From a virus: a stretch of 30,874 nucleotides of DNA. Under the pieces are notes generated by a model that was not told the DNA's origin, ran no database searches, and saw only the letters and a program-made list of their open reading frames with translations. The position numbers were made by a program, and so were the translations under genes. How positions within the stretch are numbered: the stretch's first letter is position 1; every line of letters begins with the position of its first letter. Positions 6,232-27,577 of this stretch are shown piece by piece. The stretch spans positions 1 to 30,874 of the IMG/VR virus record IMGVR_UViG_3300003321_000059. One strand, given 5' to 3'.

Positions 6232-6431
6232 ATCCTTCTCAGGGTGACAAAAACACCCCAAAAAAGGGGTGTCTTCCCCCTCTGAAAGAGGGGCGTGTGC
6301 ACGCGCACGCGCGAGGCGAGGTTCGTCCGTGGGTCGCCAGGATGGGTAGTTTGGCGCGAATCTTCAACCTTCGTGCTGATCCTGAGGGTCGTCTTCCGTG
6401 GATCATGGAGCGTGTAGATCGTGAGCGTTGA
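6228..6431 (+). CDS. Small hypothetical protein, uncertain
   Basis: A 67-residue frame begins at an ATGA overlap with the Sm-like gene and overlaps the helicase start by 11 bases. Its C-terminal half ('MGSLARIFNLRADPEGRLPW') looks protein-like, but the N-terminal half is encoded by two back-to-back hairpins and an alternating GTGCACGCGCACGCGC run, so that part may be non-coding. An internal ATG at 6342 is possible. No family is recognised. Confidence 0.4.
   Translation: MNPSQGDKNTPKKGCLPPLKEGRVHAHARGEVRPWVARMGSLARIFNLRADPEGRLPWIMERVDRER
6246..6293 (-). terminator. Tandem hairpins; intrinsic terminator on the minus strand
   Basis: ACACCCC (6253-6259) and GGGGTGT (6266-6272) flank a loop of six A. 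Read on the minus strand, the stem is followed by TTTTGTC, the layout of a Rho-independent terminator. A second stem, CCCCTC/GAGGGG (6277-6282 with 6288-6293), follows on the + side. As all genes are on +, the element would stop antisense transcription into the late region. Confidence 0.5.
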
Positions 6432-7779
6432 AACCCTCACGATTGCCAAGGTTGTCGAAGATGGTGGTGCCGCACTTCGTAGGCTCTACTCAGCCGGAAT
6501 CTCTGCCTCAGACTTTTCAGTCTACGAGGAAGAGTTCCGTTGGGTCGAGCGCCGCATCTCCCAGCGGAAGCCGCTGAACCGGCGCACGTTCCGTCAGAAG
6601 TTCCCTGACTTCGAATGGAATGGCGTGCCAAGTGAGGACGTGGCCGATCTCGCTGCCGAACTGAAAGAGGAGCGTGCCTACGAGGAACTTGCGAAGGTGC
6701 TCTCCACGATCAGTGACAACCTGGAACGCGACAATGCGCTAGAGCTTGCGATCCAAATGCGGGAGCATCTTGGCAATGTGACCAAGAAGTTCCATCCGAT
6801 GGCCGATGTGGAACTCGACTCCGACGTGCGCGGCGTGATCGAGGAAATGCGCAAGGGGATGGCGCTAGCGAAGGCCGGACTGTCGAGCGGGATACCAACT
6901 GGCTTTCCGCATCTCGACCATCACTGGGGCGGCCTGATGCCAGGCGTCTTCATCGAGGTACTTGGCAGAACGGGCGAAGGCAAGTCGCTCAAGGTGAGCG
7001 CGATGGGATGGAGCGGGAAGAAGAATGGATACAAGGTTGGCATCTTCACTCCCGAGTTCAATGAGCACGAGGTTCGCTGCCGGTACCACTGCATCGCCTC
7101 GGCTGACAAGGACGTGCAAGCGGCCGTCGGCCTTGAGCGAAGCTTCCGGCATCGTGCTCTACTTTTCAAGCATGGCTTCAACCTCAAGAGCTATCAGCGG
7201 TTCATGGAGTACCTGCGTGACTCTTCCGGCCGCATGCATCTCCTGAGCGGCGTTCACATGCGGGACAGGATGAGCGTCGGTTACATCGAGGATCGCCTGG
7301 TAGACCTTGAGCTTGATCTTGTCATCGTGGATCCCATCTACCTGCTCAAGCCGGTACGAACTACACGCGACGGCAACAATTGGCAGGAAATCGCGTGGAC
7401 GGCCGAAGCTCTGCATCACCTGAGTGAGCAATACAACATCCCCATCGTCTTCACGAACCAAGCGAATGACAAGCAGAAGGGGTCGGCTCGCGAGGATGCT
7501 CCGCACAAGTCAGACAGCTTTGGCAGTCAGTCGATGACGCACATCGTTGACTACGTGTTGGGAGTCAAGCATGTGAGCGAAGAGAACCACATGATCTGCC
7601 GCGGTACCAAGTCTCGCTTCGGTCAGAACTTCCGCTACGAGTTGGGCTTCTTTGCCAACACTGGCGTGATCAAGCAGAAGACCGCCCTCAAGGGTAGTTA
7701 CTGGAACGGACATGATGAGGACACCGACGAAGATGATCTAACCCAGATGGTCAACAGCGCCATCGGGAAGGAGGACTAA
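6421..7779 (+). CDS. DnaB-type replicative DNA helicase
   Basis: The hexameric helicase that unwinds the phage replication fork. The C-terminal RecA-like domain shows Walker A 'GRTGEGKS' at about residues 182-189, Walker B 'LVIVDPIYLLKP' around residue 300, and a conserved 'FTNQANDKQKGSARED' region that fits the DnaB/DnaB-like motif after the H4 segment. The N-terminal 150 residues are helical, as in DnaB. At 452 residues it has the usual size for a phage DnaB. The start is GTG 6421, which overlaps the end of the preceding frame; the ribosome site is weak (GGAG). The C-terminus is acidic (DEDTDEDDL). It is followed by a TAATG junction and lies in one run with primase, SSB-like protein and polymerase. 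Confidence 0.9.
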   Translation: MSVETLTIAKVVEDGGAALRRLYSAGISASDFSVYEEEFRWVERRISQRKPLNRRTFRQKFPDFEWNGVPSEDVADLAAELKEERAYEELAKVLSTISDNLERDNALELAIQMREHLGNVTKKFHPMADVELDSDVRGVIEEMRKGMALAKAGLSSGIPTGFPHLDHHWGGLMPGVFIEVLGRTGEGKSLKVSAMGWSGKKNGYKVGIFTPEFNEHEVRCRYHCIASADKDVQAAVGLERSFRHRALLFKHGFNLKSYQRFMEYLRDSSGRMHLLSGVHMRDRMSVGYIEDRLVDLELDLVIVDPIYLLKPVRTTRDGNNWQEIAWTAEALHHLSEQYNIPIVFTNQANDKQKGSAREDAPHKSDSFGSQSMTHIVDYVLGVKHVSEENHMICRGTKSRFGQNFRYELGFFANTGVIKQKTALKGSYWNGHDEDTDEDDLTQMVNSAIGKED

Positions 7780-8677: not shown

Positions 8678-8874
8678 TCGAGACACTTGACAAGATCCGC
8701 CACAAGATTCCGTTCTGGTGGTGGATGACCTACGACACGCTCGTGCTTCTTGTCATTTTATGGGGGGTGCATCCACGCGATATGTGGTTCGTCATCGGTC
8801 TCATCATCCTTGGCATTGCAGTTGTCATCGACACGATTGAGTTCATCGTCAAGAACCCCTGGCGGAAGAGATGA
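8674..8874 (+). CDS. Small membrane protein, two TM segments
   Basis: A 66-residue protein with a basic N-terminus and hydrophobic segments 'FWWWMTYDTLVLLVILWGV' and 'MWFVIGLIILGIAVVID', ending 'KNPWRKR'. Starts as GTGA on the nuclease stop and ends in an ATGA overlap with primase. No family is recognised; membrane proteins inside replication modules sometimes tether replication to the membrane, but nothing here shows that. Confidence 0.65.
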   Translation: MIETLDKIRHKIPFWWWMTYDTLVLLVILWGVHPRDMWFVIGLIILGIAVVIDTIEFIVKNPWRKR

Positions 8875-9893
8875 TTTACGACGGTCGCTATATCGATGTG
8901 CTCGCCTTGTGGGGTGAGTTCGTGGACTTGCCTGATCACATCGAGGATCCGTTGCCGACCTACTTGCCAAAGGTTCGCTGCCCAAATCCCGACCACGACA
9001 CACACAAGGCGCACTTCCAGATCAATACGAAGCAGCCGCTCGTCCATTGCTTTGCCAACTGCGGGATCAGCGGCACATACGAACATGCCATCTCGGTGAT
9101 CAAGGGGTGTAGCGAGCGTGACGCAAGACGCACTATTCTCCGAGCCTCCCGCGTACCACTTGCGGGAGACATTGCAACGGCAGGCGGAGTTGGCAAGCGT
9201 AAGACGGTTGCAGTCGATTCCGAGATGGAGAAGGACAGGAGGGCACTTGAAGGCGGACGGTTCACCTTCCTGCCAAAGCCAGCTAGACACTTCCTCGATT
9301 ACCGTGGCATCGATGGCTCCTCACGAGGCAAGTGGCAGATCGGGTTCGATGAAGACACGGATAGACTTGTCATCCCAGCCTACGACGAGCGCAATGTCTT
9401 TCGTTTCCTGATCCGGCAGAGGATCGACGGCATCTCGCGAGCGAAGTACCTCTACACGCCAGGCGGGATCAAGACTGGGATTCTGTTCGGTGCTTGCTAT
9501 CTGGACAGGGAGACGGTACGATCCCGCGGCCTGATCCTCTGCGAAGGGCCGCTGGATGCGATTCGCCTTCATCAGTTGGGTTTCGCCAATGCGGTCGCGA
9601 TACTTGGCACCGGGATCAGCAGCAGTCAGGTTCGCCTGATTGACAAGATACACCCGAAGCGTATCTACCTGATGTTCGATAAAGACGAAGCAGGCGTTCA
9701 CAACATCGAGCTTGCCAAGACTAGGATCCGCAAGGTTCCTCTTTTCGTCTGCCGGTATCCAAAGGGCAAGAGCGATCCGGGTGAAATGACAAACCACGAA
9801 GTAGAAAGGAGCATTGATCGAGCGTTGACAACTTTTGAGTTCAGTCGTAAATCCCGAAGTGCAATCAAGACGAAGGTAGGTGTTCATGGCTAA
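8871..9893 (+). CDS. DNA primase (CHC2 zinc finger + Toprim)
   Basis: Makes RNA primers for phage replication. The N-terminus carries a CHC2-like zinc finger: Cys37, His42, the His59-Cys60 pair and Cys64 in 'VRCPNPDHD...VHCFANC'. The DnaG core follows with 'LDYRGIDG', 'DRLVIPAYDERNVFRFLIRQ' and 'YLYTPGG'. A Toprim domain then shows 'LILCEGPLDAIRL' (catalytic Glu near residue 224) and 'YLMFDKDEAG' (metal Asp pair near 270). At 340 residues it is a short primase lacking a large helicase-interaction domain, so contact with the separate DnaB-type helicase may use the short C-terminus. The start is an ATGA overlap; its end overlaps the next start by 8 bases. Confidence 0.88.
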   Translation: MIYDGRYIDVLALWGEFVDLPDHIEDPLPTYLPKVRCPNPDHDTHKAHFQINTKQPLVHCFANCGISGTYEHAISVIKGCSERDARRTILRASRVPLAGDIATAGGVGKRKTVAVDSEMEKDRRALEGGRFTFLPKPARHFLDYRGIDGSSRGKWQIGFDEDTDRLVIPAYDERNVFRFLIRQRIDGISRAKYLYTPGGIKTGILFGACYLDRETVRSRGLILCEGPLDAIRLHQLGFANAVAILGTGISSSQVRLIDKIHPKRIYLMFDKDEAGVHNIELAKTRIRKVPLFVCRYPKGKSDPGEMTNHEVERSIDRALTTFEFSRKSRSAIKTKVGVHG

Positions 9894-11614: not shown

Positions 11615-14600
11615 ATGACAACTGCACCCGACCTACACGTCCACTCGACGTTTTCAACCTACGATGGAATGGGGTCGCCGAAGGCGGTAGTCGCGCGTGC
11701 AGTTGAACTGGGCTGGGGTGCTGTTGCGCTGACCGAACATGGTTGGCTTGGCAGCGCCCCAGTTCTCTATCAAGAGGCGAAGAAGGCTGGGATCAAGCCG
11801 ATCATCGGTTGTGAGATGTACGTCACCCCGGAGGATGACCTGCGTGATGGTGACAAGTCCGTACTCAAAGAGCGGCGGCATCTCACAGTGCTGGCTCTCA
11901 GTTTCGAGGGTTACCAGAACCTTGTCACCTGGGTCAATGCCTCGATGGAACGGCCGCTCTATTACAACGGGCCGCGGATCTCAGTTGAGCGGATGGTGGA
12001 CATTGCCAAGTGGCCGCTCCATCACAACGTGATCTTGAGCGGCTGTCTCGGCGGCGAGCTATGCCAGTGCCTCTTGCATGGCAACGGCAACGCTGACTAC
12101 GCGGCCGAGTCCCTGGTCGGAGCGATGTCCGTAGCCTTCCCGAATTTCTACATCGAGATCCAGAACCATCAACATGACAAGTTCATGGAGCGTGGATTGT
12201 CGAATTACGAGGAAATGGTGACGAGCCAAGCAGTCGTCAGGGACAGACTCCTCGATTTGGCATCCACACTCGATGTACCTGTCATCGTCACGAACGATTC
12301 GCACTATCAGTCGCAGGATCAACGCAAGGCGCACATGGCGATGCTCGCCCGGAAGCAGTGGCGTCGTGCAAGAGACGCGCACGAGGGCGAGACGCATGAA
12401 GCCGAAGCCACGGGGTTCGCCGGTCAGTACGCATACTGGCTGAGCTATATGCGGCCGATGGAGAAGATTGCGGCCTCACTGCCAAGGTGGGCTGAGAAGC
12501 AAGCAATCGAATCGATCTATGAAATCGTGGAAGAAGCCAATGTCCGACTCGACCCTCTTGACAAGTTTAGTTACTCCGTCCCGCGGTCGGGTTACGATTC
12601 TCCTGTTGAAGAAGTCTGTCGTCGTTCTAAGGCCAGGCTCAAGTCAATGGTTCTGCGGCATGGTCAAGTGGCGGCTGACCGCTTCGAATATGAACTAGAC
12701 GCGATGAAAGACTTTGCGGACTACCTCGTACTTGTCAGTGACGTAGTTCGCATGGCGCGGCACTCAGGCATCTACACCTGGACGCGAGGCTCTGCCGCCA
12801 ACTCCCTGGTCGCGTACTGCCTGAAGATCCACGACATCGATCCCATCCATTACAAGCTGATGTTCGAACGCTTTGTCAACCCCGAGCGGATGAAGTTGCC
12901 GGACATCGACCTGGACATTGAGGGCCATCGTCGCGATGACGTGGCTCGCATGGTCGTGGAGCACATGAGCGAGATCGAGGGTGACAACAACGTGCGAGGT
13001 ATTTGCACGTTCTCCACGATCAACAATCGGGCGGCCTTCCGGCTGATGGCATCGGCCGCTGGCGTGCCAGAGGAACGGATCGATGAACTTGCCAAGATCC
13101 TGCCGCAGATGATCGATAGTGGTCTCGTGGAATCCGACGAAGAAGCCTACGAGATGCTGAAGGACGAGTACCCGGATCTCTACGACTTGGTATCGGACGT
13201 GTTCGATTCAATCGGCGGCGTCTCCCAGCATGCCTGTGCCTTCGTGATCGGTACCAAGGAACGGCCGCTGGAAACGTGGGTACCGAACTACAGGATCGGT
13301 TCGTCCGATGCGCTTGTCACTCAATACAACATGAAGGCCATCGAGGAACTTGGCTTCCTGAAGCTCGACTTGCTCAAGTTGGACACGCTCTCGATCATGC
13401 ACAATGTCGCGAGGATGCTTGGCAAGGACATGAAGTGGCTCGACTCGATCATGGCCACCGAGACCGGCATCTACGATGAGGAGGATGCGGCCACCTTCGA
13501 CCTTCTCAGGCAGGGCCGCACAGAGGGCATCCACACGATGCAGGGAGCCACGCAGAGGCGCGGATGCATCGAGGTAGGGGTTGAGACCGATGACGACCTT
13601 GTGGCCGTCCAGGGGCTTTACAGACCGTCAGGGACGCGTACTGGACTCGACAAGGCATTCGTCAATCGCAAGCACGGCCGTGAGGATTGGGAGAGCGTCA
13701 ACGAGTTGGCAGGTGAATTCCTCGATGAGACCTACGGCATCGCCATCTTCCAAGAGCAGATCATGGAGATGGGCAGCGCGATGGGCATGACCGGCGCCGA
13801 GATCGATGATCTCTACAAGGCGATCAAGACTGCCAAGGGCGTAGGCCGCGGTGCCAGGGAGCTTTTCGAGAAGTTCGAACCGACGTTCCGCAAGTACGCT
13901 GACAAGCTCATGCCCAAGAGCGAGGCCGACGAGCTATGGGCTGAATGGGAGAAGCTACAGGGGTACACGTTCAACCGCGGTCATGCAACGAGCTACGCGA
14001 TCTTGGCACTAAAGACTGCGTACCTGAAGGCGCACCACCCCCAGGAGTTCTTCGTGGCCTTGCTCGACCGCTATCCGAACAATCCTCGATACTTGGCAGC
14101 AGCTATCGCAGAAGGCTTCACCTTTGAAGCCCCCGATGTCAATGCGTCAGGAGGGAGTTTTGCCAAAGGATCAACTGACAAGTCTATTCGCATCGGTCTT
14201 TCCAAGATCAAAGGCGTTGGCCCAGGTGCTGTTTCGGAGATCACCCGCAATCAACCGTTCGCTTCCGTTGATGACCTTCGAGAGAGAACGAGTGGGCATC
14301 GCGTCAAACAACCAACCATCAATGCACTTGCAGCAGTCGGTGCGTTTCAATCGCTTGGCATTGAGGGCGAGAAAGACGACCTGACCGACTTCGAACTGAT
14401 GGAGTTCATCCCGAGGAAGCCGCAAGCCTTCAACGGATGCAAGCCACAGATCCGTCTCAAGCGCGGTGGCAACTGGGAGTTCACCGGGCTAGAGCGCGGA
14501 GTCACCGTGGCGCAAGGCAAGTCCTTCTGTGCCAAGCTGTTCTGGCTCCTACCCGTGAGTGACAACTTCACGATGAAAACGAGCGCGACCGGCAAGGTCA

Positions 14601-14899
14601 ACGCATTTCTGCTCACTGCGGTGGACGAGAACGGCATCCCCTTCGACCTGATCGTTCCCGACATCGAGCGCAAGGCGAGCGAAGTGAAGCTACTCAAGCT
14701 GCTTGCCAAGCGCGGCAAGGATGTCGTGGTTTGCGCCGAGGGACAAGTAAGCATGCCTTTCCTGCGTGGCGGCAACACTGGCTTCAAGCTCTGGGGGATC
14801 GCTGGTGCAGAGCAAGGAAATCCGAACGTCTGGAATGCCGACGAGGATCTGGCCAAGATGATCATTCACTTGGCAGATCAGAAGAGGAGAAAAAGATGA
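11615..14899 (+). CDS. dnaE: DNA polymerase III alpha subunit (DnaE type) with PHP domain
   Basis: The phage replicative polymerase, 1094 residues against about 1160 for E. coli DnaE. The N-terminal PHP domain is intact in its metal motifs: 'DLHVHSTFSTYDG' (H8, H10), 'ALTEHG', 'IIGCEMYV', 'VTNDSHYQ', so it may have proofreading activity. The palm has 'LPDIDLDIEG' with Asp430 and Asp432, and the third catalytic Asp585 in 'FLKLDLLKLDTLSIM'. Finger and thumb signatures include 'GVSQHACAFVIG', 'VQGLYRPSG', 'YGIAIFQEQIMEMG' and 'GYTFNRGHATSYAILALKTAY'. A helix-hairpin-helix follows ('IKGVGPGAVSEI', about 864). The C-terminus is short, without an obvious clamp or tau-binding tail. It begins two bases after the HU-like stop region; most phages carry a family A or B polymerase instead. 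Confidence 0.93.
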   Translation: MTTAPDLHVHSTFSTYDGMGSPKAVVARAVELGWGAVALTEHGWLGSAPVLYQEAKKAGIKPIIGCEMYVTPEDDLRDGDKSVLKERRHLTVLALSFEGYQNLVTWVNASMERPLYYNGPRISVERMVDIAKWPLHHNVILSGCLGGELCQCLLHGNGNADYAAESLVGAMSVAFPNFYIEIQNHQHDKFMERGLSNYEEMVTSQAVVRDRLLDLASTLDVPVIVTNDSHYQSQDQRKAHMAMLARKQWRRARDAHEGETHEAEATGFAGQYAYWLSYMRPMEKIAASLPRWAEKQAIESIYEIVEEANVRLDPLDKFSYSVPRSGYDSPVEEVCRRSKARLKSMVLRHGQVAADRFEYELDAMKDFADYLVLVSDVVRMARHSGIYTWTRGSAANSLVAYCLKIHDIDPIHYKLMFERFVNPERMKLPDIDLDIEGHRRDDVARMVVEHMSEIEGDNNVRGICTFSTINNRAAFRLMASAAGVPEERIDELAKILPQMIDSGLVESDEEAYEMLKDEYPDLYDLVSDVFDSIGGVSQHACAFVIGTKERPLETWVPNYRIGSSDALVTQYNMKAIEELGFLKLDLLKLDTLSIMHNVARMLGKDMKWLDSIMATETGIYDEEDAATFDLLRQGRTEGIHTMQGATQRRGCIEVGVETDDDLVAVQGLYRPSGTRTGLDKAFVNRKHGREDWESVNELAGEFLDETYGIAIFQEQIMEMGSAMGMTGAEIDDLYKAIKTAKGVGRGARELFEKFEPTFRKYADKLMPKSEADELWAEWEKLQGYTFNRGHATSYAILALKTAYLKAHHPQEFFVALLDRYPNNPRYLAAAIAEGFTFEAPDVNASGGSFAKGSTDKSIRIGLSKIKGVGPGAVSEITRNQPFASVDDLRERTSGHRVKQPTINALAAVGAFQSLGIEGEKDDLTDFELMEFIPRKPQAFNGCKPQIRLKRGGNWEFTGLERGVTVAQGKSFCAKLFWLLPVSDNFTMKTSATGKVNAFLLTAVDENGIPFDLIVPDIERKASEVKLLKLLAKRGKDVVVCAEGQVSMPFLRGGNTGFKLWGIAGAEQGNPNVWNADEDLAKMIIHLADQKRRKR

Positions 14900-16036: not shown

Positions 16037-17110
16037 ATGCCAAGGAAAAGCGCACTGACGAAGAGTGGTGGCGCGGCGGCAACACTTGCTGCTCGCGTCA
16101 ATTCCGCCATGAAGCGGAATGTTGTCACGATGGCAAGCGATCCGCGCTTCGAAGTGAAGCGAGTCCCGACGGGTTCACTTGTCATTGACAGACTGACGGG
16201 TGGCGGCTTCGCAAGAGGCCGCCATGTTCTCCTCTACGGCGACTTCATGGTTGGCAAGTCGCTCATCCTCTACATGACGCTCGTGCTTGCGCAGCAGCGT
16301 GGCGAGGTTGTTGCGCTGGTGGATGGTGAGAAGGTGTTTGATCCAGCGTGGTTCACTACGCTTGGGGGCGATCCTGATCAGCTTGTCATGTTCCAGCCTG
16401 AGGAGCAGTCCTTCTCGGCCAACGAGATCGGCAATGTCCTACGTCTACTTGTTGACAAGTCCGCTGGCATGGAAGCTGCCAGCATCGTCGGCGTGGATTC
16501 GGTGGCAAGTCTGATCCCCGAGGAGGAGCTACTGCACGACCTTGAGGAAGGGGATGCTCGCGTAGCCAGCCAAGCTCGCCTGATGAGTCTCCTCCTTCGT
16601 ATCCTGACAAGTCAGAACGATGACACCCTGTTCATCTGGACGAATCAGTGGCGTGACAAGATCAGTCGTATCCCTGGCCAGCGTTCGACTCCTGGTGGCC
16701 GCAGTCTCGGCTTCTACGCCAGTACGATGATCGAGATGATGAAGGGTGACAAGGAGACGATTCCGCACTCTGTGCCGTACAAAGGCAAGCTCGTGGAGCG
16801 CAAGATGGTCGAGGGTCAGTGGGTCAACTGTACGCTTACCAAGGAGAAGACCGGCGCTCGTCCCTTCGACACGCTTTCCTTCATGCTGGACTACGAGACA
16901 CGCCATATCGACCGTGCCAGGGAGATCATCGATCTTGGCATGCGTGATGGCGCAATTGAGCGCAAGGGCGACTACTACGAGATGGCATCGCCGGACGGCG
17001 GCGTCGTCCGCGCTCATGGGATCAAGCGAGCCGTTGCTAGGATCAACGACGACGAGGAGCTTCGTGAATTCCTGGTGACATGCATCGAGGAGGCTGGTTC
17101 CGGTGTCTAG
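16037..17110 (+). CDS. RecA-family recombinase
   Basis: Strand-exchange ATPase for recombination-dependent replication and repair. Residues show 'PTGSLVIDRLTGGGFARGRH', Walker A 'GDFMVGKS' (68-75), a catalytic Glu strand 'VVALVDGEKVFD', Walker B 'IVGVDSVASLIP' (Asp154), and an L2-like region 'TNQWRDKISRIPGQRSTPGG' then 'LGFYASTMIEMMKGD', which closely follows the RecA order. At 357 residues it is full length. The N-terminus MPRKSALTKSGG resembles the starts of two other genes here. The ribosome site is poor, so translation may depend on readthrough coupling from the gene 3 bases upstream. Its end overlaps the next GTG start by 8 bases. Confidence 0.9.
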   Translation: MPRKSALTKSGGAAATLAARVNSAMKRNVVTMASDPRFEVKRVPTGSLVIDRLTGGGFARGRHVLLYGDFMVGKSLILYMTLVLAQQRGEVVALVDGEKVFDPAWFTTLGGDPDQLVMFQPEEQSFSANEIGNVLRLLVDKSAGMEAASIVGVDSVASLIPEEELLHDLEEGDARVASQARLMSLLLRILTSQNDDTLFIWTNQWRDKISRIPGQRSTPGGRSLGFYASTMIEMMKGDKETIPHSVPYKGKLVERKMVEGQWVNCTLTKEKTGARPFDTLSFMLDYETRHIDRAREIIDLGMRDGAIERKGDYYEMASPDGGVVRAHGIKRAVARINDDEELREFLVTCIEEAGSGV

Positions 17111-17327
17111 CGTGAAGGTCTGTGACAACTGCGGCAAGGTGATCCACGAAACGAAGAACCCTATCGTCGCCAAGCTCTACTTGGCACCTTACGTGGCTGG
17201 CAAGACACGCGCACTGCATAGTCACTACACGGCCAGCATGGATCTCGGCCGCTGCTGCGCTGAAACGATGATCTCGCAGAAGCGATGGGTCAAGCGCAAG
17301 GCGAGGGCACGTCAAAATGGGCGTTAA
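17103..17327 (+). CDS. Small zinc-finger-like protein
   Basis: A 74-residue basic protein starting at GTG 17103. 'KVCDNCGKVIHETKN' gives a CxxC knuckle and 'DLGRCCAETM' a later Cys pair, together a possible zinc site. The C-terminus is Arg/Lys-rich ('RWVKRKARARQNGR'), suggesting nucleic-acid contact. It lies between RecA and an Hjc-like nuclease with overlaps on both sides, so a recombination accessory role is plausible. Confidence 0.65.
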   Translation: MSSVKVCDNCGKVIHETKNPIVAKLYLAPYVAGKTRALHSHYTASMDLGRCCAETMISQKRWVKRKARARQNGR

Positions 17328-17664
17328 AACCCCTTGGGAGCGTGCTACAGCCGCTCGTAGGGCCAAGAGGAGTGAAACCCAGGCCGCGGCATCTGACGGC
17401 GGGAGAAGGGTTCCTGCGAGCGGGGCGCTCCGTGGCAACAAAGGCGACGTGCGGACGCTCGACTATCTGATCGAGGACAAGTTCACCGATGCCGAATCGT
17501 TCACGATCAAGTTGTCAATGCTCCGCAAGACCGTGCAGGAAGCTCTACAGATGCACGGCCGCTTGCCAATGTGGAGAATCACGATCCGGGGCGAGCGGTT
17601 TCGCCTGATGCGCGAGGACGACTATCTCTACCTGAAGGCCCAAGCGGATGCCAACTTCGACTGA
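17317..17664 (+). CDS. PD-(D/E)XK Holliday-junction-resolvase-like nuclease
   Basis: A 115-residue protein. The core has the archaeal Hjc/phage resolvase layout: 'VPASGALRGNKGDV' with Asp44, then 'YLIEDKF' with Glu53 and Lys55, then 'TIKLSMLRKTVQEALQMHGR' and a final strand pair 'MWRITIRGERFRLMREDDYL'. The SGA...KGDV...E.K order is typical of small phage PD-(D/E)XK junction or flap nucleases. The N-terminal 35 residues are basic and likely disordered. It overlaps its neighbours on both sides and sits next to RecA and a second PD-(D/E)XK nuclease. Function in DNA branch processing is inferred. Confidence 0.75.
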   Translation: MGVKTPWERATAARRAKRSETQAAASDGGRRVPASGALRGNKGDVRTLDYLIEDKFTDAESFTIKLSMLRKTVQEALQMHGRLPMWRITIRGERFRLMREDDYLYLKAQADANFD

Positions 17665-18589
17665 GCGGCGGATCCTTCAGCGCCGCCAGGCTCAAGAGAG
17701 CGGCGCCCTCCTCGTGCCGATCCTTGAGGAGCTACTAGAGCGCGAGTGCATTCCCGAAGACGAGGACGACTTCCGCTTCATCGATATGCTGCTTCGGGTT
17801 CGTGCGATGCCAAGGTCGAAGGGCGTCTTCTCCCCTTCGATGCTGGGTAGCTGTGTGCGTCAGGCATGGTTCTCCAAGCGCGGTGAGAAGAAGCATTTGG
17901 CACACAGCCCTCAGACCAACGGTTACTTCCTCACCGGCAACTTCGTCCACTTCAAGTGGCAGTTTGCGATGTGGAAGGCGCATCGCAAAGGACTCCTTGA
18001 GCTTGCCAAGATTCCTGCCGAGAATCGACAGGTCGCATGGGAGACCGACGATGCTGTTCGTGGCCCGTGGCGCTGGGCCGTCGAGGTACGCGTCATCGAC
18101 GGAGACTTCGGCGGCACCATCGATGTGATCCCCATTCTTGGTAAAGCGCACGTCACCGACTTCAAGGGGATCAACCTGATCGACTTTCAGCGCACGGTCA
18201 AGCGTGGCGCTCCGATCCCGTACCGGCGGCAGATCGTCGGCTATTCGCGGATCGCTGAGCGCGTACTTGGCATCGAGTTCGGAGATGCGCTTCTGATCAG
18301 CGAGTGTAAGGCTGGGCCGGTCAGTGGTATCGACTCGCCGTTGGCGCTCCACGAGACCCGCGTGCCGCTTGAAAAGTTCGACGGCGATCTGAAGCGGCGC
18401 CTGAAGACTCTCCGCTGGTATGACCATCGTGACGAGATGCCAGAGGCCGAGTGTGTATCGACGCGGCATATGAGTTTTCAGGAATGCCCATTCAACCGCT
18501 TCTGTCTCGATGAAGTCCGCGAGGCGCAGAAGGAGCACGAGGCGAAGCTTCGTCGGCGTGCCAAGAGCTTGCGCGTATCGCGTGGCTAG
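17648..18589 (+). CDS. Cas4/RecB-like PD-(D/E)XK exonuclease
   Basis: A 313-residue nuclease of the RecB/Cas4 superfamily. The N-terminal 'FSPSMLGSCVRQAWF' resembles the entry motif of Cas4, with Cys69. The active site is 'GTIDVIPILGKAHVTDFKG' with Asp159, Asp171 and Lys173, followed by a QxxxY-like 'RRQIVGYSRIAERVLG'. Three more cysteines near the C-terminus (269, 280, 286; 'FQECPFNRFC') could complete an iron-sulfur cluster, though the spacing of the first one differs from the standard Cas4 set. It probably resects DNA ends for RecA. There is no Cas1 or Cas2 nearby, so a CRISPR role is not suggested. Confidence 0.8.
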   Translation: MPTSTERRILQRRQAQESGALLVPILEELLERECIPEDEDDFRFIDMLLRVRAMPRSKGVFSPSMLGSCVRQAWFSKRGEKKHLAHSPQTNGYFLTGNFVHFKWQFAMWKAHRKGLLELAKIPAENRQVAWETDDAVRGPWRWAVEVRVIDGDFGGTIDVIPILGKAHVTDFKGINLIDFQRTVKRGAPIPYRRQIVGYSRIAERVLGIEFGDALLISECKAGPVSGIDSPLALHETRVPLEKFDGDLKRRLKTLRWYDHRDEMPEAECVSTRHMSFQECPFNRFCLDEVREAQKEHEAKLRRRAKSLRVSRG

Positions 18590-19692: not shown

Positions 19693-19903
19693 GAGTGTCC
19701 GCATCTGCCTAGATATCACCCTGCGTCATCCCCGCAACGGTCGTGGGCTGATTGATTTGGCCGACGCCATCGAGGATGTTGTCAGGGATCTTCGCTCTGT
19801 CGCATCTGTTCGTTGGGTCGAATCGACGGCGGCTGAGCCTGATTTCGACTACAGCGAGTGGAACGCCATCATGGTGACAAGGAGGGCGATGCGCAATGGC
19901 TAA
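19676..19903 (+). CDS. Small hypothetical protein
   Basis: A 75-residue product ('TESVRICLDITLRHPRNGRG') starting at ATG 19676, with GAGGAGG upstream and TTGGCA filling the spacer. The order strand, helix ('LIDLADAIEDVVRDLRSV'), strand ('SVRWVES') suggests a small ferredoxin-like fold. It overlaps the genes before and after. Confidence 0.65.
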   Translation: MKMTTESVRICLDITLRHPRNGRGLIDLADAIEDVVRDLRSVASVRWVESTAAEPDFDYSEWNAIMVTRRAMRNG

Positions 19904-20081
19904 GACGAAGCAGATCACAGTTGAGCTTGGCAATCCGCAGGAGAAGAAGTATGTTACACGCTACGACTTCGAAGAGCGGGACGATTCTGACGCGGCAATG
20001 TCGAGCGCGTACATCAGCAAGGAGGCGCTGAAGGAACTTGGCAACCCTGAGCGCGTCAAGATCACGATTGAGGCCGCCTGA
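19896..20081 (+). CDS. Small hypothetical protein
   Basis: A 61-residue protein with a short two-part beta sheet pattern: 'KQITVELGNPQEKKYVTRYD' and 'YISKEALKELGNPERVKITI'. Two LGNP elements are present, so it may be a small internal repeat. It starts at ATG 19896 behind AAGGAGG and ends in TGATG with the Spo11-like gene. No family is recognised. Confidence 0.65.
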   Translation: MAKTKQITVELGNPQEKKYVTRYDFEERDDSDAAMSSAYISKEALKELGNPERVKITIEAA

Positions 20082-20884
20082 TGGCAAGCGGCCGCAATTG
20101 GAGCGCCGTCCTCAATCATGCGGCAGCCATTGTCCGCAGCTACGACACGCGGGTGACGTTGCGGCAGTTGTTCTACCGGCTGGTTGCCGATGGCACGCTC
20201 CGCAATACGCGCAGCGAGTACGGGCAATTGAGTGCCAAGACCGCGCAGGCTCGTCGCGACGGATGGTTCCCCGATCTGATGGATCGCACGCGCTCTATCG
20301 AACGTGCTCGCACGTTCGACTCGCCAACTGATGCCAAGTCATGGTTGTCCCAAATCTATCGGCGGGATCGGACTGAGGGTCAGAACTACTGCATCTACTT
20401 GGCAGTCGAGAAAGCAGGTATTGTCAATCAGCTATGGGAGTGGTTCAGCGCCTACGGCTTGCCGATCCTGCCGCTTCAGGGCTATGCGTCTCAGAGCTTC
20501 GTTGACGAGGTTGCCGAGGACGTGATGGCGGACGGCCGCGAATCGGTGCTGATTTATGCTGGCGACTTCGATCCATCGGGCGAGGACATCGACCGCGATT
20601 TCTGCGAGCGCACCGGATGCTGGGACAACATCTATCGCATCGCCCTACTGCCAAGTCAGGTCGAGGAGTACGACCTACCGCCTGCGATGGGCAAGGCAAC
20701 CGACTCGCGTGCTTCGCAGTTCATCGCCAAGCATGGTGAGTTGGTACAGGTCGAGCTTGACGCTCTTCCTCCCGACGTTCTGCGAAGTCTGTACGAGAAT
20801 CAGGTGTTCGAATACTTCGATACCGACGCGTGGGAGGAAGTTGTCAACCGTGAGAGAAAGGAGCGTGATTCCCTTGTCGCATAA
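20081..20884 (+). CDS. Stand-alone Spo11/Topo VI-A-like protein (Mini-A type)
   Basis: A 267-residue protein with the two domains of type IIB topoisomerase A subunits. The winged-helix 5Y-CAP-like part has 'RVTLRQLFYRLVADGTLRN' with candidate catalytic Tyr32. The Toprim part has 'LAVEKAGI' (Glu110) and 'YAGDFDPSGEDIDRDF' (Asp162, Asp164). The middle 'YGQLSAKTAQARRDGWFPDL' is typical of this phage and bacterial family. No B subunit (GHKL ATPase) is found in the window. Such isolated A-like proteins are known as Mini-A in mobile elements. It may make or reverse double-strand breaks, or act as a nuclease in recombination. Activity is not established by sequence. Confidence 0.8.
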   Translation: MASGRNWSAVLNHAAAIVRSYDTRVTLRQLFYRLVADGTLRNTRSEYGQLSAKTAQARRDGWFPDLMDRTRSIERARTFDSPTDAKSWLSQIYRRDRTEGQNYCIYLAVEKAGIVNQLWEWFSAYGLPILPLQGYASQSFVDEVAEDVMADGRESVLIYAGDFDPSGEDIDRDFCERTGCWDNIYRIALLPSQVEEYDLPPAMGKATDSRASQFIAKHGELVQVELDALPPDVLRSLYENQVFEYFDTDAWEEVVNRERKERDSLVA

Positions 20885-22334: not shown

Positions 22335-22545
22335 TCTCAGAGAAGCTGGAATCGATGTCGTCAACGATCTCGGCTTTTCACGTGTACGGATTGAACGGCC
22401 TGCGATGGCCAGTGGCTATCAGTTCTTCAAAGTGACAAGTGATCGGAGCACGTTCAACTTCTACGTCACGCCCAAGGGTTATCTGCGGGTGGAGCAGCCG
22501 CGCACTGTAAGCCGTTCTAAGGCAAAGGAGGCTCAAGGTGGCTAG
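22327..22545 (+). CDS. Small hypothetical protein
   Basis: A 72-residue protein with a beta-strand centre ('YQFFKVTSDRSTFNFYVTPK') and a basic end. ATG 22327 overlaps the previous gene; TTGGCA lies directly before the start. The next gene starts inside its end. No family is recognised. Confidence 0.55.
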   Translation: MSDLREAGIDVVNDLGFSRVRIERPAMASGYQFFKVTSDRSTFNFYVTPKGYLRVEQPRTVSRSKAKEAQGG

Positions 22546-23257
22546 GAAGACCGGGGAGACACTAAAAGGCCGTCAGAAAGGCTCACAGAGCCTCCCAGCA
22601 CCATCGATGAAGCGACCGGAGACTGGCCGGTCGTGGGCGGCAGTCGGAGTCGATACCTCGATGACGGCGATCTCGGCATGCGCGGTCGGGTATGACGTGA
22701 CAACCGGGAAGATGGTCGGGCCGACATGGGCCGAGATTCGCTGGCTTCCCGAAGACGATTACTTCTCGCGACTGAAGGCCGCTGCCAATGGCCACGAGTT
22801 GATCCTTGACGTGATCCATGAGCTATGGGTCATCGAGCTTGATCGAGTTGGCATCGCCATCGAGGAGCCGGTTCCCTTCGGAATGATCAAGCGAGCGCAG
22901 TCGGCATGGGTCAAGCAACAGTGCGAGATCGCAGGCGCCTTCAAAGGTTCACTTGCCAAGTGGGGATTCCCTCACATCTACGAGATCAACAATCAGCAGT
23001 GGAAAAAAGTGCTGCGCCATGAGGGAGTTGTCATCCGCAAAGGCACTGAGGGAAAGTGGGATGTGAAGGACTGGGCCATCCAAGCATTTGGCATGCCCAA
23101 CCTTCCTGACCTGATTTCCAAAGGGGGTGCCAAGATTCCGCGACCCGAAGGGTCGAAGGCCAAGGGCATCCAGCCACTCGATGTATACGACGCCGCGGCA
23201 TGCGCGGCATGGATGCAGGACGAGATCACCGAAGGAAGGAGCGTGCTCAATGGATGA
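22538..23257 (+). CDS. RuvC-like Holliday junction resolvase
   Basis: A 239-residue RNase H-fold nuclease. Acidic residues appear in the RuvC order: Asp39 in 'AVGVDTSMTAISACAVG', Glu109 in 'RVGIAIEEP', and the terminal pair Asp215 and Asp218 in 'PLDVYDAAACAAW'. The middle 'VKQQCEIAGAFKGSLAKWG' and 'IYEINNQQWKKVL' match the RuvC helix region. The N-terminal 30 residues are basic. It would resolve four-way junctions before packaging, and is the second junction nuclease in the window. GTG start with AAGGAGG upstream. Confidence 0.85.
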   Translation: MARKTGETLKGRQKGSQSLPAPSMKRPETGRSWAAVGVDTSMTAISACAVGYDVTTGKMVGPTWAEIRWLPEDDYFSRLKAAANGHELILDVIHELWVIELDRVGIAIEEPVPFGMIKRAQSAWVKQQCEIAGAFKGSLAKWGFPHIYEINNQQWKKVLRHEGVVIRKGTEGKWDVKDWAIQAFGMPNLPDLISKGGAKIPRPEGSKAKGIQPLDVYDAAACAAWMQDEITEGRSVLNG

Positions 23258-26877: not shown

Positions 26878-27158
26878 GTCCAATCGTCAACGTCGTCGGC
26901 AGTAAGGACAACTACCAACGCTGGAAGCCTGACAACCTACGGCACTACAAGACGATGGCTGAGCTATGTGCAGTGGTTGAACGCGACCGCTCGCGGATCT
27001 TCCAGCTTGAGCGTGCAGGAGTGATCCCCAAGCCGATCATGGTCAAGGTTGGCAGGCATCGTGTCAGGCTGTATAGTCCCGAGGAAGTTGCCGCCATAAA
27101 ACGGCACTTCCAAGACCCCGAGCGTCAGAAGCACAACGGCGGAAGGAGGAAGCGATGA
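26874..27158 (+). CDS. MerR-like helix-turn-helix protein
   Basis: A 94-residue DNA-binding protein. 'KTMAELCAVVERDRSRIFQL' is a helix-turn-helix, followed by the wing 'ERAGVIPKPIMVKVGRHRVR' and 'LYSPEEVAAIKRHF', the standard MerR/excisionase order. There is no effector domain and the C-terminus is basic (KHNGGRRKR). It could be a phage transcription regulator or a recombination directionality factor; no integrase is present in the window, so a regulator is more likely. Confidence 0.8.
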   Translation: MSPIVNVVGSKDNYQRWKPDNLRHYKTMAELCAVVERDRSRIFQLERAGVIPKPIMVKVGRHRVRLYSPEEVAAIKRHFQDPERQKHNGGRRKR

Positions 27159-27577
27159 CGACGAGCCGTAAACATACACGTGGTGCCAGTGCCAGTAAGG
27201 TGACAAGTTCACGTCAGAAGGGGCGCCGGTGGTCGCATGAGCTTGACGTGATCGGTTTGAAGTTTCGCTGGAAGCGCGATGCCAGGCGAGCACTGGCCGA
27301 CATGATTGCCAAGCGCGGATCCATCACCGGCATTCGCTTCGTCCGTGAACTTGACAACAAGTATGATGAGAACGCGATCATGGTCTGCCTTCCCGAGCGG
27401 ATCCAGGGTGGGAAGCAGCTTGGTTACCTGCGAGCCGAGACTGCCAAGGTGCTCGCGCCGAAGCTCGACGACGGCAGCCTCACCGTGGCCAGCGTTGTCC
27501 TGCATCACCTTGACGAGCGCGACGACTGGAACAGCGGCCCGATGGTGGCTACGTTTATCGATGTGATTCGCAAGTAG
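27155..27577 (+). CDS. HIRAN-domain protein
   Basis: A 140-residue protein. The C-terminal 100 residues fit the HIRAN domain: 'LDVIGLKFRW', 'ITGIRFVRELDNKYDENAIM' (the R-E-x-x-N-x-x-D-x-N-A-I signature) and 'QLGYLRAETAKVLAPKLDDG'. HIRAN domains bind 3' ends of single-stranded DNA, for instance at stalled forks, in HLTF and Rad5 helicases. Here it is stand-alone with a basic N-terminal 35 residues. Start is an ATGA overlap. It follows the SF2 helicase cluster and may work with it. Confidence 0.82.
   Translation: MTTSRKHTRGASASKVTSSRQKGRRWSHELDVIGLKFRWKRDARRALADMIAKRGSITGIRFVRELDNKYDENAIMVCLPERIQGGKQLGYLRAETAKVLAPKLDDGSLTVASVVLHHLDERDDWNSGPMVATFIDVIRK

Follow-up and report, generated by a model that had tools for sequence, protein, structure and literature searches.

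Mini-A proteins resemble type IIB topoisomerases and are encoded by mobile elements; they were reportedly described by Takahashi et al. in 2020 (NAR Genom Bioinform lqz021). In the Topo VI-A/Spo11 enzyme class the active site is formed across a dimer. In reviews, Mini-A are Top6A homologues that are truncated, are encoded by archaeal viruses and bacteriophages and were described in 2020, and one review gives their function as unknown; no activity of any Mini-A was reported in the literature that we located. This agrees with an earlier note on the DNA analysed here, which had said that isolated Mini-A proteins are known in mobile elements and that their activity is largely unknown. The protein of Pseudomonas phage NP1 is the Mini-A example drawn in one review (PMC7614492). 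Among the related enzymes, Topo VI requires nucleotide-dependent DNA bending via its B subunit for cleavage (PMC5922973). Mouse SPO11 alone makes covalent 5′-linked breaks in vitro using Y138, E224, D277 and D279; it works with hybrid active sites, stays covalently attached to the 5′ ends, and is able to reseal nicks (PMC11922746).

The virus record and its Mini-A gene

The window, which is the whole stretch of DNA that was analysed (30,874 bp), covers the linear virus record IMGVR_UViG_3300003321_000059 completely. This tailed-phage contig carries genes for the tail, lysis and replication, and it is probably a fragment of a larger virus genome. It encodes a DnaB-like helicase (6421-7779), a primase (8871-9893) and a DNA polymerase III alpha subunit of its own, of the DnaE type (11615-14899; phrog_405, E 1.7e-205). 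A HIRAN-domain protein was found at 27155-27577 (PF08797, E 4.8e-11), and it is also kept in the sister locus L010. The features around the gene under study are:

16037..17110, + strand: RecA/UvsX-like recombinase (PF00154, E 1.7e-33; phrog_97, E 7.7e-45)
17317..17664, + strand: Holliday junction resolvase (phrog_2002, E 3.6e-16)
17648..18589, + strand: RecB/Cas4-like nuclease (phrog_1706, E 5.5e-10; phrog_1990, E 7.5e-4)
19896..20081, + strand: small ORF of 61 aa, its stop overlapping the Mini-A start (TGATG)
20081..20884, + strand: Mini-A of 267 aa, similar to Topo VI-A/Spo11, with the winged helix at about 4-72, the Toprim domain at about 100-248, and Y32, E110, D162 and D164
22538..23257, + strand: possible RuvC-like protein, weak (phrog_159, E 0.17); syntenic in L010 with 51% identity
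24347..25984, + strand: DNA helicase, ResIII/Helicase_C (PF04851, E 8e-20; phrog_16, E 4.7e-56)

The frame at 20081-20884 is open throughout; its ATG shares bases with the stop codon of the gene before it, and GAGG lies just 5′ of the start. Y32 is located within TLRQLFYRLV, E110 within LAVEKAG, and D162 and D164 within YAGDFDPSG. The 61-aa ORF is also found directly 5′ of Mini-A in L010, where it is 63% identical, and it had no relatives in the other sampled loci. It was therefore rejected as a Mini-A partner.

Family assignment and conserved residues

In the PHROG search the ORF matched phrog_6247 ("DNA topoisomerase") over residues 16-265 with an E value of 2.3e-45, far beyond chance. By tblastn the protein shared 34.3% identity with the NP1 Mini-A over residues 24-253 (E 2e-27), and matches were found in 68 phage records, NP1 included. 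Both homologies extend over most of its length. It clusters with the proteins of loci L010 to L016 at 47-66% identity. When viral_contigs was scanned with the single sequence no relative came up, and the alignment-based scan gave at least 569. Since homologues are present in phages and plasmids and the window is a tailed-phage contig, the location in mobile elements is that of Mini-A. No Pfam, NCBIfam or PADLOC model matched the window protein, and PDB sequence searches with it gave chance-level matches only. Its relatives gave marginal matches to DUF2399, TOP6A-Spo11_Toprim and TP6A_N; DUF2399 was matched by two of nine family members, and the NP1 Mini-A showed weak matches to JetD models. 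Judged by homology, the ORF at 20081-20884 encodes a phage Mini-A, a member of a widespread family.

R28, Y32, E110, K111, D162 and D164 were invariant in all 89 homologues, which had been retrieved partly by Tyr and DxD motif patterns. In the ascertainment check, the 19 sequences outside the Tyr pattern and the 17 outside the DxD pattern all kept both residue sets. Y32, E110, D162 and D164 were all kept in 76 of 80 cellular contigs (the exceptions being two short or truncated sequences and two with one substitution) and in six plasmid Mini-A copies that were found without patterns. The intact Tyr32, Glu110 and Asp162/Asp164 in the expected motifs, as read from this one sequence in the earlier note, are supported by this conservation.

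Predicted structure

The AlphaFold (AF2) model of the window protein was built from 43 homologues and reached a pLDDT of 93.3 and a pTM of 0.89. It is composed of a winged helix, which bears Y32, and a Toprim domain, which holds E110 and the DxD motif, and Topo VI-A led the PDB matches for the whole model and for each domain. With Foldseek the best PDB matches of the whole model were the Topo VI-A chains 9o0g and 1d3y (probability 1.00, E 2e-4), in alignments of about 300 columns with an rmsd of 16 Å, a high value such as a different placement of the two domains relative to each other would give. A BFVD structure search with Mini-A gave nothing useful.

The Toprim part (103-245) was superposed onto 190-364 of 1d3y with Z 11.7 and rmsd 3.0 over 139 aligned residues. 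The offset of 87 between the start points of these ranges, taken from the range ends, places E110, D162 and D164 at 197, 249 and 251 of Methanocaldococcus jannaschii Topo VI-A, which we take to be its metal site. For the N-terminal domain (residues 1-98 predicted separately, pLDDT 84), the best match was again 1d3y, model residues 4-70 onto 72-143 with Z 7.2 and rmsd 2.3; next came further winged helices, linker histones and Fur/Zur among them, with Z within 1 of that of Topo VI-A, and Foldseek alone gave no significant match for this domain. The modelled likeness to the Topo VI-A winged helix, modest in Z when taken alone, is backed by the sequence motif and supports the relationship. When its profile was aligned to that of 23 archaeal Topo VI-A, Y32 fell on the last Tyr of TLRE(M/L)YY, a weak match (E 0.006, single pair), and DFDPSG paired with DGDPWS, with E110 unpaired. 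This last Tyr corresponds to the catalytic Y138 of mouse SPO11. The earlier note had named the comparison of a predicted structure with Topo VI-A as a check; the tyrosine-bearing winged helix and the Toprim domain it looked for are both in the model, and its description of a stand-alone Spo11/Topo VI-A-like protein holds in sequence, conservation and predicted structure.

Search for a B subunit

No match to HATPase_c, HATPase_c_3 or Topo-VIb_trans was found in the 30,874-bp window record (probably a fragment), in the 72-kb contig of the syntenic sister L010, or in eight reference phages recorded as complete. HATPase_c and Topo-VIb_trans were likewise absent from six Mini-A plasmids, including the complete ones of 8,776 and 15,151 bp. 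Among 50 virus records HATPase_c gave no match above the cut-off in 49, the single match being in a 177-kb contig, and HATPase_c_3 gave none above the cut-off in the window, the eight phages or the 50 virus records. Topo-VIb_trans was found in none of the 17 records searched; in the controls four archaeal genomes were positive and the bacterial genomes negative, so ordinary bacterial hosts are not expected to supply this domain. No B subunit is fused to the window protein or encoded nearby in the window, as the earlier note had observed, or in the sister contig, and the wider search for a GHKL ATPase that it proposed gave no B-subunit gene in the window record, the L010 contig or the complete relatives. 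The GHKL ATPase and transducer B subunit that define a functional type IIB topoisomerase (Topo VI/VIII) were not found in these records.

In five sampled loci a gene for a GHKL ATPase-like protein with an HEFGH metallopeptidase-like C-terminus is located within about 1 kb of Mini-A (L046:7660-9126, L083:11378-12043, L099, L100 and L101). The two genes are on the same strand, in either order, and at least three distinct Mini-A lineages show the arrangement. Because of this proximity some Mini-As may use a GHKL partner. The family was near Mini-A in two of 89 Mini-A loci and is absent from the window; 29 of its own 33 loci contained no Mini-A in the fetched flanks, most had none within 10 kb, and most whole records tested had no Mini-A at all. 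As an obligate B-like partner, the GHKL-metallopeptidase gene of L046 and L083 was rejected, since it occurs mostly without Mini-A.

Gene neighbourhood

The 72-kb L010 contig is syntenic with the window from DnaE over RecA, the resolvase, the RecB-like nuclease, Mini-A and the RuvC-like protein to the helicase. Of the genes that were compared, Mini-A is the best conserved (66%). The earlier note had placed the protein next to RecA, two junction nucleases and a RecB-like nuclease, and had thought a phage break-and-repair role attractive. RecA, one resolvase and the RecB-like nuclease were matched; the second junction nuclease is weak (E 0.17), and "next to" is loose, RecA ending 3 kb upstream of Mini-A.

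The surrounding RecA, resolvase, RecB-like, RuvC-like and helicase genes are kept only in the closest relative, L010. The 148 genes that lie one or two places away from Mini-A in 37 diverse loci matched 99 PHROG families; an HNH endonuclease family was matched twice and every other family once. Neither ORF clustering nor the PHROG scan of these 148 neighbours revealed an obligate neighbour or partner, and none was found by iterative searches with the replication and recombination genes of the window and NP1. With these queries RecA/Sak4 homologues were near Mini-A in about 11 of 89 loci; in eight of 11 they lay within 3 kb, compared with about 35% of sampled bases, the query sources (window and NP1) being counted. 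In NP1 a Sak4-like gene is directly 3′ of Mini-A, with a Cas4-type exonuclease close by. A break-and-repair role is consequently weakly supported: the recombination neighbourhood exists in the window and L010 but is diverse elsewhere and is not general to the family, as seen in the 37 loci and the small plasmids.

Mini-A on plasmids

Mini-A also sits on an 8.8-kb and a 15-kb plasmid, both complete and with no annotated recombinase. The Paenibacillus durus plasmid NZ_CP009289.1 that carries a Mini-A is a 15-kb circle whose 29 genes all share one strand and which encodes a Zot-domain ATPase, and it may be a small phage instead of a plasmid. The Mini-As of Streptomyces plasmids (L209, L212, L213, L214 and others) are about 40% identical to that of the window. 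This branch is located near plasmid ends (17 matches, median relative distance 0.21, KS p 5e-4, with p-values that ignore plasmid relatedness and assume every record to be complete and linear), and in 15 of 17 the gene is transcribed outward, toward the plasmid end. The four Streptomyces records that were opened are all linear. In two records an end-proximal "Helicase associated domain protein" is close to Mini-A. Common end-proximal blocks could explain the position without any function.

Possible mechanism and alternatives

We consider, with a probability of about 0.6, that Mini-A is a homodimeric, metal-dependent and ATP-independent tyrosine transesterase, a cleavage-only relative of the type IIB topoisomerase A subunit. 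It is favoured by the homology, the predicted fold, the invariant Tyr, Glu, Asp and Asp, the lack of a detected B subunit and the SPO11 precedent. Against it, Topo VI needs its B subunit to cut, so an A subunit alone could be inactive. In the proposed mechanism two Mini-A copies would meet on DNA, and Y32 of one protomer would attack a strand placed by the metal-holding E110, D162 and D164 of its partner. The break would be metal-dependent and ATP-independent, and a tyrosine-5′-phosphate link would join the protein to the 5′ end; as with Topo VI, a 5′ overhang of 2 nt would be left. As no ATPase was found, driven strand passage is not expected; the enzyme might cut and reseal, or leave breaks for repair. 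The target would most likely be the replicating or recombining DNA of the element itself, which is the least supported step. We might speculate, rather tentatively, that Mini-A is a partner-free, ATP-independent Spo11-like transesterase making programmed, protein-capped breaks in the own DNA of phages and plasmids, and that its branch on linear Streptomyces plasmids is tied to their ends.

A sub-case of the transesterase reading, somewhat doubtful in our judgement, is a programmed break-maker that starts recombination-dependent replication of the phage and passes the ends to the adjoining RecA and RecB-like proteins, as Spo11 does to Dmc1/Rad51. The RecA, resolvase, RecB-like and helicase genes flanking Mini-A in the window and L010 and the Sak4-like and Cas4-type genes of NP1 agree with it, as does RecA/Sak4 within 3 kb in eight of 11; however, the queries used brought up such recombinases near Mini-A in no more than about 11 of 89 loci, hardly any family recurs among the neighbours, and the 8.8- and 15-kb plasmids have no annotated recombinase. 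Mini-A could instead be a true topoisomerase whose ATPase partner comes from an unrecognised phage gene or from the host. The same-strand GHKL gene within about 1 kb in at least three lineages would fit, but its family lives mostly without Mini-A, reaches two of 89 loci and is not in the window, and none of the bacterial control genomes has Topo-VIb_trans; we regard this as unlikely.

A Toprim endonuclease like Wadjet JetD/MksG, cutting with metal and no tyrosine-DNA link to destroy plasmid, host or rival-phage DNA, is similarly improbable. MksG (8b7f) and JetD (7til) do rank after Topo VI-A in the fold searches, the weak JetD matches of NP1 and the DUF2399 matches point the same way, and MksG cleaves alone and ATP-free (PMC10123090). 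Yet MksG has no tyrosine candidate at the 5Y-CAP position (PMC10123090), whereas Y32 is present in the Mini-A motif TLRQL(Y/F)Y and invariant, which makes JetD-like hydrolysis less likely, and no SMC/kleisin partner was identified beside the window Mini-A. A protein that binds DNA without catalysis and is retained for structure or regulation would suit the lack of a demonstrated Mini-A activity in the literature located; the near-invariant Y32, E110, D162 and D164 in phages, cellular contigs and plasmids are hard to explain without catalysis, and we think this very improbable.

Comparison with known systems

The window protein and Topo VIII are both of type IIB and of mobile elements; Topo VIII carries a B-type ATPase part, and none was found with the window Mini-A. 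With JetD/MksG it shares a Toprim domain of similar fold (Z 10-11), whereas MksG lacks the 5Y-CAP catalytic tyrosine and is part of an SMC system (PMC10123090). The catalytic layout is like that of Spo11/Rec12, and SPO11 alone cuts DNA in vitro (PMC11922746); Mini-A is non-meiotic, has no Spo11 core or accessory proteins, and its kinship is detectable via Topo VI-A. The winged helix and Toprim fold, the TLRxxYY tyrosine motif and the Glu...DxD metal site are common to Top6A, which is however longer (about 360 aa against 267), and no B subunit was found for Mini-A.

Mini-A is the smallest known form of the cutting module common to Topo VI and Spo11. With a short, confidently modelled Mini-A and the 2025 finding of partner-free cutting by SPO11 dimers, the question of cleavage by a lone A subunit, and of its purpose, becomes directly testable in a phage. 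If true, the programmed-break reading would make Mini-A a viral counterpart of the meiotic break-maker. Compared with the described Mini-A of NP1, the window protein is alike in size, A-only layout, Tyr and Toprim residues and mobile-element location, and its N-terminus is shorter by about 30 residues. The family already has a name, and the window protein adds a member, not a new kind; the leads beyond known Mini-A are the end-proximal branch on Streptomyces plasmids and the GHKL gene adjoining Mini-A in a few phages.
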